Positions 20,574-24,854 of a stretch of DNA of 64,000 nt are shown here, in pieces. The stretch lies in the NCBI GenBank assembly GCA_003140835.1, contig PLLA01000121.1:120984-184983 (forward strand), given 5' to 3'. Under the pieces are notes generated by a model. The model had not been told where the DNA came from. It saw only the letters and a program-made list of their open reading frames with translations, and made no database searches. The first letter of the stretch is position 1. Each line of letters begins with the position of its first letter. Source of the DNA: Candidatus Tumulicola scandinaviensis. Its GTDB lineage: Bacteria; Vulcanimicrobiota; Vulcanimicrobiia; Vulcanimicrobiales; Vulcanimicrobiaceae. Position numbers and translations under genes: made by a program.

Positions 20574-21533
20574 TTACGGGTAGTGGTGGACGCAGGAGCT
20601 CGAAGCGTTACTGAACATGGACTGCGCCGTGTAGGTCTTGGATGCGTAGGGATCGTTCGCAATGTGCGTTCCCCAAGCGCAAAGATCGCCTATTTCGCCC
20701 GAACCGCTATTCCAGCCGGTGAACGGTTGCGGGTCGGTGATCGACTCGCCGTACTCGTGGCCCTCGACGACCGTGACGCCTTCGTCGGCGCCGGTTTCGT
20801 CGGACGGCGGGCTGATGTAGTTTGCACCGCAGTTCGCACCGGCATCCGGAATGTAGGGCAGGTTCGTGTACGCAACCAGCTGACCACCGGTCGTCGTGTC
20901 GCTATGATACGCGCAATACGACGTACCGAAGCCTGACGAACTGTGGTCGTGCGCCGTTACGACGACGTACGAACCATTCGCATCATACCCGAAGTGGGCA
21001 ACGCCCGCGAGCGCTTCGGCGGCAACTTGACCGTCGGTCGGGTGCGACGGGATCGGGTTGGTGTCGTCCGCCCAGAACGTCGTCTTGTTGCCCTGATTGC
21101 CCGGGTTCGTGATGTTGGTCTTGACGTTGTTGACGATTTCATAATACTGCGTATAGATATTGTTATACGCGCTGCCGCCGATATTCTTCGCATAGTTTTT
21201 GAGCAACGGCTTGACTTTGTTCGGGTCTCCGGCGGCCTTAAAACCCCAGAAAATGACATACATCTTGGGCGCGACCAAAACCGGTCCGCCGCCGTACGTC
21301 AACTGGAGGTCTGGCTTCACCGCGGGAGCCGGTGACTTAACGGTGCCCATGTAATGCGGCACGCGGTAGGTGACGCCGCCCTCGTGAATCCATCCGGCGT
21401 TATCGGCGGCCTGCTGCTGCAGGTTCATCGGCGAACCGGCGCTCGGGGTGACGCCCGAATTCGACGAACATCCCGCTGCCGCAAGCGCTGCCGTGCACGC
21501 AACAATACCGACGAGCCGCGAAAGCTTATCCAT
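20574..21533 (-). CDS. Secreted lipoprotein, HExxE/Phi_1-like family, copy A
   Basis: The 319-residue product starts MDKLSRLVGIVACTAALAAAGCSS with a lipobox (AAGC). The mature domain has YGGGPVLVAPKMYVIFWGFKAAGD and, near the C-terminus, VVEGHEYGESITDPQP followed by GEIGDLCAWG. The H-E-x-x-E-x-x-T-D-P...E-I-x-D-x-C pattern recalls EXORDIUM/Phi_1 proteins and metallopeptidase-like secreted proteins; zinc binding is inference. The ATG at 21533 follows a GAGGAG site 10 nt upstream. A frame open upstream to 21827 is non-coding leader. The paralogue at 21728-22687 is nearly identical. Confidence 0.78.
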   Translation of the reverse strand: MDKLSRLVGIVACTAALAAAGCSSNSGVTPSAGSPMNLQQQAADNAGWIHEGGVTYRVPHYMGTVKSPAPAVKPDLQLTYGGGPVLVAPKMYVIFWGFKAAGDPNKVKPLLKNYAKNIGGSAYNNIYTQYYEIVNNVKTNITNPGNQGNKTTFWADDTNPIPSHPTDGQVAAEALAGVAHFGYDANGSYVVVTAHDHSSSGFGTSYCAYHSDTTTGGQLVAYTNLPYIPDAGANCGANYISPPSDETGADEGVTVVEGHEYGESITDPQPFTGWNSGSGEIGDLCAWGTHIANDPYASKTYTAQSMFSNASSSCVHHYP

Positions 21534-21542
21534 CGCGTTCTT

Positions 21543-21621
21543 GCTCCTCATGAGGGAATTGGGGGTAGCAAGACCCTCCTTTTTGCGCCCTTGGGTCTGG
21601 TTACCTTCGATAGCCGGGCCG
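21543..21621 (-). promoter_or_regulatory. Structured leader of duplicated lipoprotein gene, copy A
   Basis: Reading on the minus strand: CGGCCCGG (21614-21621), a stem made of AGACCC (21593-21598) and GGGTCT (21571-21576) flanked by GGTA/TACC pairs, then TGCTACCCCC (21561-21570) and TCATGAGGAGC with the ribosome site. The same blocks in the same order precede copy B, but with a different stem sequence. I do not recognise a riboswitch class. Confidence 0.5.
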
Positions 21622-21670
21622 GCGCTGCGTGCACGGCAGCCAGAATCGAGAATGCACTTATGGCACGCGA

Positions 21671-21709
21671 AAATTAAAACGAGGGGACCGCTCGGGAGCG
21701 ATCCCCTCG
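21671..21709 (-). terminator. Rho-independent terminator of the second duplicated lipoprotein gene
   Basis: CGAGGGGA-CCGCTC (from 21680), loop GGGA region, and GAGCGATCCCCTCG (to 21709) form a stem with a small mismatch. On the minus strand the stem is followed by TTTTAATTTT (21671-21679). It lies 18 bp downstream of the copy B stop and matches in position the terminator after copy A. Confidence 0.8.
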
Positions 21710-21727
21710 TCGTTCTAACCGTGCTTT

Positions 21728-22687
21728 TTACGGATAGTGGTGGACGCAGGAACTCGAAGCGTTGCTGAACATCGGTTGCGCCGTATAGCTCTTGCTGCCG
21801 TACGGGTCGTTTGCAATGTTCTGCCACGCACAGATGTCGCCGATCTCACCCTGCGCGTTGTTGTACCAGCCCGAGGGCGGGTTCGGATCGGTAACGGACT
21901 CGCCGTACTCGTGGCCTTCGACGATGGTGACGCCTTCGTCGGCGCTGGTCTCGTCGGACGGCGGGCTGACCTGACCGGAGCCGCAGCTATGGCCGGCATC
22001 CGGAATGTAGGGGAGGTTGGTGTACGAAACGAGCTTACCGCCCGACGTCGTCGCGCTATGGTACGCGCAGTACGACGTGCCGAAGCCTGACGAGCTGTGA
22101 TTGTGCGCCGTCACGACGACGTACGAACCGTTCGCATCGTAGCCGAAGTGGGCGACGCCGGCGAGGGATTCGGCGGCAACTTGACTGTCGGTCGGGTGCG
22201 ACGGGATCGGGTTGGTGTCGTCCGCCCAGAACGTCGTCTTGTTGCCCTGATTGCTCGGGTTCGTGATGTTGGTCTTAACGTTGTTGATGTCTTGGTAGTA
22301 CTGCGTGTAGATGTTGTTATACGCGCTGCCGCCGATATTCTTCGCATAGTTTTTGAGCAACGGCTTCATCTTATTCGGGTCGCCGGCGGCCTTGAAGCCC
22401 CAGAAAATCACGTACATCTTCGGGGCGACCAATACCGGTCCGCCACCGTAGACGAGTTGGATGTCGGGCTGCACCGCACCGCGGGGCATGTCGGCCGTGG
22501 GCATGTAACGGGGAACGTGGTAGGTGACGCCGCCGTCGTGTACCCAGCCGGCATTGGTTGCAGCCTGCTGCTGCAGGCCCATCGGCGAGCCGGTGCTCGG
22601 GGTGACGCCGGAATTCGACGCACATCCCGCTGCTGCAAGCGCCGTTGCGCACGCAACAATACCGACGAGCCGCGAAAGCTTATCCAT
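21728..22687 (-). CDS. Secreted lipoprotein, HExxE/Phi_1-like family, copy B
   Basis: This 319-residue product has the same length as copy A and the same segments: MDKLSRLVGIVACATALAAAGC lipobox leader, YGGGPVLVAPKMYVIFWGFKAAGD, and HEYGESVTDPNPPSGW with GEIGDICAW. Differences cluster in the N-terminal linker (MPTADMPRGAVQPDIQ against MGTVKSPAPAVKPDLQ) and around Cys-containing loops (GHSCGSGQVSPP against GANCGANYISPP). Recent tandem duplication with retained leader and terminator is evident. The ATG at 22687 uses the same GAGGAG site. Function is unknown; expected on the cell surface. Confidence 0.78.
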   Translation of the reverse strand: MDKLSRLVGIVACATALAAAGCASNSGVTPSTGSPMGLQQQAATNAGWVHDGGVTYHVPRYMPTADMPRGAVQPDIQLVYGGGPVLVAPKMYVIFWGFKAAGDPNKMKPLLKNYAKNIGGSAYNNIYTQYYQDINNVKTNITNPSNQGNKTTFWADDTNPIPSHPTDSQVAAESLAGVAHFGYDANGSYVVVTAHNHSSSGFGTSYCAYHSATTSGGKLVSYTNLPYIPDAGHSCGSGQVSPPSDETSADEGVTIVEGHEYGESVTDPNPPSGWYNNAQGEIGDICAWQNIANDPYGSKSYTAQPMFSNASSSCVHHYP

Positions 22688-22697
22688 CGCGTTAATA

Positions 22698-22775
22698 GCT
22701 CCTCATGAATGAGTAAGGGGGTAGCAAAGGCGCTCCATTTGTGCGTGCAGGCGCCAGGCACCTTTGCCCGGGCCG
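22698..22775 (-). promoter_or_regulatory. Structured leader of duplicated lipoprotein gene, copy B
   Basis: On the minus strand: CGGCCCGG (22768-22775), then GCAAAGGTGC (22758-22767) pairing over 10 positions (one G-T) with GCGCCTTTGC (22724-22733), then TGCTACCCCC (22717-22726) overlapping the stem end, and TCATGAGGAGC (22698-22708). Order and conserved blocks match copy A, with a wholly different stem sequence. CATAAGTG, a possible -10 area, lies about 15 nt further upstream. Confidence 0.5.
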
Positions 22776-22850
22776 ACTTTTAACACTTATGAATTCTTGC
22801 TCCCTCGGGAGTTAAACGAGTGAGAGGATGCTTGGGTTCCCGAAGGGCCG

Positions 22851-23867
22851 TCAGCTCGGCTCGAGCAGCTGATCGATCGTGCAGTCGCGCGGACTTTTGT
22901 CGGGACGCCATCGTAGCAAGCGAGCCGAATGGCGAAAACGCCGCGCCGTCACGTGGTCGAACGACACCTCGACCACGACGATCGGCTTGGTCGGGACCCA
23001 TTCGGACTCAGTTTCGCCCTTGCGCCAGCGGCTCGGACCGCCCGGCGTAACCCCGGTGAAGCCGGGCGGCGCGACGATCGGCTCGAGCACTTCCGAAGCT
23101 CGCCGACGTTCGGCAGCGCTCATGCTGCCGACGAACCCGACGTGGTCGAGATTCCCATCGTCGTACAGTCCAAGTAACAGCGATGCGACCGCACCGTCAC
23201 CGGATCGCCGGAAACCGCCGACCACGCAGTCGGCCGTGTAGCGACGTTTCACTTTGACGACCGCATCGCGCCCGCCAAAACCGTACGGTGCGTCGAGGCG
23301 TTTTGCGATGACGCCGTCGAGACGGGCGGTGTCGCCGTCGAGCCACTTCTGCGCGACGGCAACGTTCTGAGTTGCGGGCGAAACGACCAGCGGCGATCCG
23401 TTCGCAAAGTATCTCTCGGCAAACGATTCGAGTGCAGCGCGCCGCTCCGAAAGCGGCCGCTCGTACCACGGCTTTTTCTTTTCGTCCACGAGCACGTCGA
23501 AAACGGCGAAGCGCGCGGGCGTTTGCTGCGAGAGCTTCATTACGCGGCTCTGCGCCGGGTGGATTCGTTGCAGCAAAGCGTCGAAGTCGAATCCCGGCCC
23601 GCTCTCGACGAAAATTTCGCCGTCGATGACGAACCGTCGTGCTCCGAGCGCTCGCAGCGCGGTGACGATCTCGGGGAAGTATCGCGTGAGCGACTGACCC
23701 GATTTCGATTCGAGCTCCACGTCGTCGTCCGATCGAAACGCGATGCAGCGGAAGCCGTCCCATTTCGGCTCGTACAGCCACTGGTCGCCCCGCGGAATCT
23801 GCAGCACTTGGCGCGAGGCCATCGGCTCGATCGGCGGCTTCAGCGGAAGATCGTCGAAGCGTCCCAC
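22851..23867 (-). CDS. ATP-dependent DNA ligase (LigC / LigD-ligase-domain type)
   Basis: The 338-residue protein has the adenylation motif EPKWDGFR (catalytic Lys near residue 34), FVIDGEIFVESG (motif III/IIIa), DGVIAKRLDAPYGFGG (motif IV) and VKVKRRYTADCVVGG (motif V), then an OB domain with SEWVPTKPIVVVEVSFDH. It is the size of a stand-alone LigC or the ligase domain of LigD. The GTG start at 23867 follows a GGTGGA site, 6 bp after the stop of the polymerase gene, so both are in one operon. It likely seals breaks in end joining or base-excision repair. Confidence 0.9.
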   Translation of the reverse strand: MGRFDDLPLKPPIEPMASRQVLQIPRGDQWLYEPKWDGFRCIAFRSDDDVELESKSGQSLTRYFPEIVTALRALGARRFVIDGEIFVESGPGFDFDALLQRIHPAQSRVMKLSQQTPARFAVFDVLVDEKKKPWYERPLSERRAALESFAERYFANGSPLVVSPATQNVAVAQKWLDGDTARLDGVIAKRLDAPYGFGGRDAVVKVKRRYTADCVVGGFRRSGDGAVASLLLGLYDDGNLDHVGFVGSMSAAERRRASEVLEPIVAPPGFTGVTPGGPSRWRKGETESEWVPTKPIVVVEVSFDHVTARRFRHSARLLRWRPDKSPRDCTIDQLLEPS

Positions 23868-23873
23868 TCCACC

Positions 23874-24854
23874 CTACGTTCCCAGTCTTCGACCAAGCTT
23901 CTGTAAATCGTAGCGGGCACGTTTGTCGAGCAGCGGCGCCCACAAATCGCCCAGACGCTCGAGGCGCACGGGGACGTCGAGCATCGTGAAGTCGGCCGAC
24001 TCGCAACCTCGTTCGACCTCTTCCCAGGTCACCGGCGTGGATACCATGGCGGCTTCGTTGGGGCGCACCGAATAGATCGACGCCAGCGTGCGTCCGAAAG
24101 CGTTTTGGTTATAGTCGAGCAACACGCGGCCGCGCGGGCGCTTTGCGACCCGATACTCGACGATGAGAAGGTCCGGGTGCGCCTGGGCGATCGCGTGCGA
24201 AAGCGCTTTGGCTATTTCCCACACCTCGTGCTGCGTCGGCCCGGTGCGGATGGCGACGTACACGTGCATGCCCTTGCTCCCGGTCGTTTTCACGTACGGA
24301 ATCATTCCCAGCGACGTAAACACGTCGCGCACGACCAGCGCGGCCTCGCGCACGGCCGAGAAGGGTGCGTCGAACGGATCGAGGTCGATGTGAAGGTAGT
24401 CGGGGTGGTTGAAATCGTCGCACGGTGCGTACCAGGGATTGAGGTCGATGCAGCCGAGATTGATGAGCCATAGCAGCGATGCCGCATCGTCGATCACCGG
24501 AAAATCGATGACGTTCCCGGACCTATGTTCGATCGGACAGGTTCGAATCCACTCCGGGCGCGGCGATGGGGCTCGTTTCATGAAAAAGAAATCGCCGGTC
24601 GCTCCGTGCGGATAACGCTTCATGACCATCGCCTTTCCGGCGACGTGCGGAATCACCGCCGGAGCGACGCGCAAATAGTAGCGCAGCAGATCGCCCTTCG
24701 TCAGCCCGAGCTCGGGAAAGAAGGTCTTATTTAAGTTCGTCAAAGCGACCGCAAGGCCGTCGACCGTAACGGTCGCAGCATCGACGCCGGTCGGAATTAC
24801 GCTTACGTTCGAACCAGGAGGTGAACGCTGAAGCGTTGCGCGCGATCGTGCCAC
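23874..24854 (-). CDS. LigD-type polymerase (PrimPol) domain protein
   Basis: The 326-residue product matches the LigD polymerase domain: TKGDLLRYYLRVAPAVIPHVAG, LLWLINLGCIDLNPW, the catalytic HIDLDPFDAPF with two Asp, TGSKGMHVYVAI and FGRTLASIYSVRPNEAAMVSTPV. Such enzymes add ribo- or deoxynucleotides at DNA ends in bacterial end joining. Here polymerase and ligase are separate genes rather than one LigD. I find no Ku and no 3'-phosphoesterase domain in the window. The only visible start is GTG 24854, which overlaps the methyltransferase gene by 52 bp, an unusually long overlap. Confidence 0.9.
   Translation of the reverse strand: MARSRATLQRSPPGSNVSVIPTGVDAATVTVDGLAVALTNLNKTFFPELGLTKGDLLRYYLRVAPAVIPHVAGKAMVMKRYPHGATGDFFFMKRAPSPRPEWIRTCPIEHRSGNVIDFPVIDDAASLLWLINLGCIDLNPWYAPCDDFNHPDYLHIDLDPFDAPFSAVREAALVVRDVFTSLGMIPYVKTTGSKGMHVYVAIRTGPTQHEVWEIAKALSHAIAQAHPDLLIVEYRVAKRPRGRVLLDYNQNAFGRTLASIYSVRPNEAAMVSTPVTWEEVERGCESADFTMLDVPVRLERLGDLWAPLLDKRARYDLQKLGRRLGT

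Follow-up and report, generated by a model that had tools for sequence, protein, structure and literature searches.

The tandem lipoprotein genes of this locus raise the question whether their similar 5' leaders represent a conserved regulatory RNA or just sequence that was duplicated together with the genes. Both genes are situated on the minus strand of the window, i.e. the whole stretch of 64,000 nucleotides of DNA that was analyzed, which belongs to an Eremiobacterota genome of 4.0 Mb in 130 contigs. Gene A (20574..21533) encodes a predicted lipoprotein of 319 amino acids with a signal sequence and Cys22, which has distant similarity to the Phi_1 family (PF04674), while gene B (21728..22687) encodes a paralogue of the same length with 84% protein identity. 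Their ATG codons at 21533 and 22687 are preceded on the same strand by leader A (21534..21632) and leader B (22688..22780), respectively. Downstream of gene B an intrinsic terminator was found (21678..21711, minus strand) with a 15-bp stem and a T-rich tail; the terminator scan as a whole stayed at the level of shuffled sequences, nonetheless this stem is exceptional. Gene A therefore most likely possesses its own promoter, which would be located within 21534-21677. The region in front of gene A also contains a second in-frame ATG in one of the shared blocks (TC-ATG-AGG-AGC, 21533-21551, minus strand), which lies 18 nt ahead of the annotated start and would give a protein beginning with MRSKNAMDKL. 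The downstream, annotated ATG is the likelier start codon, because the upstream one stands before the Shine-Dalgarno sequence.

The first-pass annotation of this DNA had claimed that both leaders share several blocks in the same order, and these blocks are indeed present upstream of both ATGs. On the minus strand, CGGCCCGG occurs at 21614..21621 in leader A and 22768..22775 in leader B, followed by TGCTACCCCC at 21561..21570 and 22717..22726 and by TCATGAGGAGC at 21543..21553 and 22698..22708, the last of which includes the Shine-Dalgarno sequence (AGGAG in leader A). The two leaders are 0.71 identical, and the fourfold degenerate sites of genes A and B reach 0.74; hence, common descent accounts for the shared blocks. 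Inheritance from a tandem duplication of one gene-plus-leader unit, which gave rise to both copies in the window, explains them on this comparison. The exact sequence TGCTACCCCC was also tried as a marker and rejected, since four sites in a genome of 4 Mb are roughly what a 10-mer yields by chance, and of these only the ones in the two leaders are relevant.

The more far-reaching claim was that the leaders contain stems of different sequence that both pair, and that such retained pairing with changed sequence indicates selection on RNA structure. The complementary arms do exist, AGACCC/GGGTCT around a 16-nt loop in leader A (21571..21598, minus strand) and GCAAAGGTGC/GCGCCTTTGC with one G-U pair around a 24-nt loop in leader B (22724..22767, minus strand). 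However, when the leaders are aligned, the 5' arm of the A stem occupies columns 35-41 and that of the B stem columns 23-32. When the stem columns of A were imposed on leader B, 4 of 6 pairs could form, and the B columns gave 5 of 10 pairs in leader A. Moreover, the 3' arm of the B stem overlaps the TGC of TGCTACCCCC, whereas the 3' arm of the A stem stops before this block. Judged by these positions, the two stems are not homologous. Dinucleotide-preserving shuffles of the sequence between CGGCCCGG and TGCTACCCCC were searched for a stem beside TGCTACCCCC: 52% of them yielded a stem as long as that of A, which is thus at chance level (p=0.52), and 0.35% one as long as that of B (p=0.0035). 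Neither named stem appears in the minimum-energy structure of its full leader, and the full leaders do not fold better than shuffled versions (z +0.79 for A and -0.49 for B). The consensus fold of A and B together is likewise at the shuffle level (z +0.34). Compensatory pairing between leaders A and B is not supported, and with the chance-level A stem, the consensus fold at shuffle level and the failing cross-pairing the argument for structural selection within this pair falls away. The locus illustrates how two paralogous leaders can mimic covariation when they have inherited the same blocks and carry unrelated short stems between them.

The single other genome of the genus that was examined (G001) permits a comparison over a longer distance. 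Its closest homologue, L008, is 64% identical to the gene B product in the alignment. It stands after a ligD-type ligase gene as gene B does, and is therefore regarded as the positional orthologue; in the window, the adjoining genes (22851-24854, minus strand) are ligase-like and polymerase-like and presumably encode LigD functions. The leader of this orthologue lacks the TGCTACCCCC motif and retains chiefly ATGAGGAG and CGCG close to the start codon. Compared without the ribosome site, its similarity to the window leaders is not significant (p 0.096 against B and p 0.198 against A).

A different picture emerged from a sister genus, here called g5, where a conserved leader of about 86 nt, which could not be recognized from the window, precedes genes of the same lipoprotein family. 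It consists of GCAGGGGAGG, a variable section that contains an invariant GAA, then CTTT(C/A)CCTGC, TAGCTA-pyrimidines-TAGCTAC, GAGAGGTT and the ATG. Three divergent pairs of g5 loci were compared. Leader identity amounted to 0.80 for L012/L013, 0.86 for L010/L038 and 0.79 for L018/L022, versus 0.56, 0.58 and 0.58 at fourfold sites and 0.48, 0.63 and 0.59 in the upstream sequence, which is thus at the level of the random baseline (0.51). Identities of 0.79-0.86 in the leader against 0.56-0.58 at fourfold sites show that the leader is under selection, and these comparisons clearly point to purifying selection. A covariance model built from 14 g5 leaders (R1) was searched against 99 genomes of the family and 103 genomes of the order. 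It yielded 14 strong matches (E 2e-15 to 7e-7), all of them in g5 and all leaders of this gene family. No further strong match was detected elsewhere in the order and none before any other gene in its 103 genomes, and the model failed to reach the more distant paralogues within the same g5 genomes. In the window no Rfam family reached its gathering threshold, and no existing family was matched by the window leaders or their relatives. Lenient E-values returned only weak sub-threshold matches of leaders and relatives to unrelated families, which were rejected.

The structural support for the g5 leader, including one covarying hairpin, is moderate. Its consensus fold is better than that of column-shuffled alignments, with z -2.7 for 14 sequences, -3.1 for 20 and -3.4 for one clade of 7, while the other subclade gave no structural signal (z 0.04) and the single-sequence folds reached an average z of only -0.5. 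The outcome for covariation in the relatives depends on the register in which the second hairpin, P2, is read. In the register chosen first, TAGCTA/TAGCTA, covariation did not exceed that of shuffled alignments (0.111 vs 0.112). Read as GCUAG/CUAGC, a register picked after the sequences had been seen, it was 0.175 vs 0.133 (8/500), and slid versions gave 0.07-0.10. In this hairpin two pairs display double changes, A-U to C-G in two sequences, which may be one event, and G-C to U-G in one. The weak CUC/GAG hairpin at the Shine-Dalgarno sequence is paired in 97.6% of cells. Two further features of individual leaders were observed. Upstream of the first copies at L014 and L016, there is a more distant CCCTG that could replace CCCTGC as the partner of CAGGG in the first stem and might give an alternative structure. 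In L010 and L038, some 95-135 nt ahead of the ATG, a 5' segment (AACCTCTCGT and GCCTCTCGTTA, respectively) has 10-11 nt of complementarity to the Shine-Dalgarno region (ACGAGAGGTT and TAACGAGAGGT), which would allow long-range sequestration of this site; no such complementarity was seen by eye in the other g5 members.

The connection between the window and g5 is mainly through leader B. On the window, R1 scored leader B at 2.9 bits (E=2.4) and gave no full-length match for leader A. In a positional comparison with the g5 leaders that disregarded the ribosome site, leader B reached z 3.6 (0/200 shuffles) and leader A z 1.1; with the ribosome site included, leader A reached z 2.5. In this comparison, control regions taken from further upstream of A and B showed no similarity to the g5 leaders. 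By eye, the succession GCTA-CCCCC-TTACTC of leader B resembles GCTAGCTA-ACCCCCC-TTAGCTACTC of g5, so that B looks like a g5-type leader from which the second hairpin has been lost. The window leaders, B in particular, thus look like diverged homologues of the g5 leader. In this respect, the expectation that relatives would carry homologous leaders was borne out by the g5 set and by the weak similarity of leader B to it. The wider idea of a conserved leader finds its footing in g5, through the selection, the lack of an Rfam match, the fold better than column shuffles and the modest covariation in one hairpin; the compensation claimed for the window pair does not hold.

As the best explanation we propose a 5' initiation leader that is specific to one lipoprotein gene and affects this gene in cis, with the window leaders as its duplicated and diverged forms; we give this reading about an even chance (roughly 0.5). 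The g5 leader would fold into a stem GCAGGG/CCCUGC, followed by the GCUAG/CUAGC hairpin with a pyrimidine loop and then the short CUC/GAG hairpin around the Shine-Dalgarno sequence. For this single gene, it probably determines how readily ribosomes reach the start site, or how stable the mRNA is. Both its action as RNA and its effect on translation are probable features that we infer from the leader sequences. An input by a protein or a small RNA is possible, given that Hfq and CsrA are encoded. A more specific version is considerably more tentative and on balance improbable, namely that Eremiobacterota possess a new regulatory RNA, specific to one gene, whose three hairpins end at the Shine-Dalgarno sequence, which controls a Phi_1-like lipoprotein in two genera, and which occurs in the window in derived copies that no longer have the second hairpin.

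For the window itself it may be sufficient to assume that 5' untranslated sequence was duplicated along with an ordinary ribosome-binding site and has lost whatever function the ancestral leader had. We consider this possible, if still rather doubtful: leader identity does not rise above that of the fourfold sites, the A stem and the A+B consensus fold do not differ from shuffles, the leader of the ligD-flanking orthologue is not conserved and R1 finds no match in the window, yet neither the length of the B stem nor the similarity of leader B to the g5 leaders is expected on this assumption. The conserved block might also be a DNA element, i.e. the promoter or operator of the lipoprotein gene, with the complementary arms as an inverted repeat or incidental. 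It is mainly the primary sequence that is conserved, in several g5 members there is a near-tandem TAGCTACTCC repeat of 10-11 nt, and a sigma-70 scan above the block gave nothing consistent. Furthermore, in the second copies L014 and L016 the apparent terminator of the upstream gene, in our reading, has its end about 100-110 nt ahead of the ATG, hence a promoter would need to overlap the block. Against a DNA element, conservation continues through the Shine-Dalgarno sequence to near the ATG, the P2 pairing is kept with double changes, and in L057 and L020 the direct repeat decays while the hairpin pairing is retained. We hold a DNA element to be unlikely, but it stays a serious rival and the main one to the RNA reading, since the GCUAG/CUAGC register is post hoc, its C-G cases are maybe one event, and single sequences fold hardly better than shuffles.

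The remaining alternatives carry much less weight. It appears quite improbable that the leaders are targeted by a global RNA regulator, be it CsrA through GGA sites or a small RNA that depends on Hfq. Both regulators are encoded in the genome and GGA occurs in the candidate hairpin loop of both window leaders and again in the Shine-Dalgarno sequences (AAGGAG/TGGAG and GAGGAG), but GGA is common and part of any Shine-Dalgarno sequence, and in g5 the loop GGA is not maintained, several members having TGAA or CGAA in its place. A leader peptide acting by attenuation or translational coupling is very improbable, because the short ATG- or GTG-initiated frames in a few g5 leaders (L021, L018, L020, L057 and L010) have no common start codon, frame or stop across the members and are disrupted by indels. 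The ligand control envisaged by the first-pass annotation, i.e. a ligand-binding riboswitch class, is hardly to be expected either. A conserved leader with a ribosome-site hairpin and without Rfam match would suit it; however, the R1 matches are confined to one genus and to one gene family, which leaves the ligand-sensing reading unsupported, and they have yielded no multi-stem core in which unpaired residues are conserved. The literature consulted contained no paper on riboswitches in Eremiobacterota.

Among known systems, conserved 5' untranslated regions are found on abundant outer-membrane or lipoprotein mRNAs of the ompA/lpp type. The gene-specific g5 leader with hairpins before a gene for a secreted protein or lipoprotein resembles them, which is a resemblance only. 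The CIRCE operator consists of TTAGCACTC-N9-GAGTGCTAA, and the g5 leaders carry TTAGCTACTC, a short spacer and then GAGG; an identity with CIRCE was rejected, because by eye no matching second half-site is present. The TIGR03647 and RS05825 motifs (PMC6429828), with 770 and 80 unique examples, are alike in their narrow distribution, their constant position before one gene and their hairpins near or enclosing the ribosome site. They differ in that the present leader has 14 model matches in one genus and little covariation, and in that the window copies lie outside the model. In that work (PMC6429828), narrow motifs with a ribosome-site hairpin were listed as cis-regulatory candidates, poorly structured ones being low-ranking, and by this practice the present leader would be a low-ranking cis-regulatory candidate. 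It nevertheless offers a conserved and undescribed element before a defined gene, in a phylum that has been little studied, and a set of sequences open to direct testing.

Homologues of the lipoprotein gene are present in 53 of the 99 genomes of the family. The products of genes A and B scored 17 and 14.8 bits against PF04674, and neither reached the Pfam gathering threshold of 25; at E<=0.01, 2 of 16 members of the lipoprotein family matched Phi_1. The structure prediction for protein A had a mean pLDDT of 47, hence the fold search with it (best hits ADAM metalloproteinases, E 0.08) was discarded as evidence, and a profile search of solved structures gave a single weak match (E 0.03). The genes of this Phi_1-like family (20574-22687 and the homologues L010-L065) often occur as tandem copies, and the proteins share the invariant residues HE-x-x-E...DP and GEI-x-D (H259, E260, E263, D267, P268, G279-I281, D283), motifs that resemble a metalloprotease site. 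A third homologue, L007 (G000:C11:89727-90632), lies about 50 kb away; it is 42% identical, and an in-frame TAG falls within the part that was matched.
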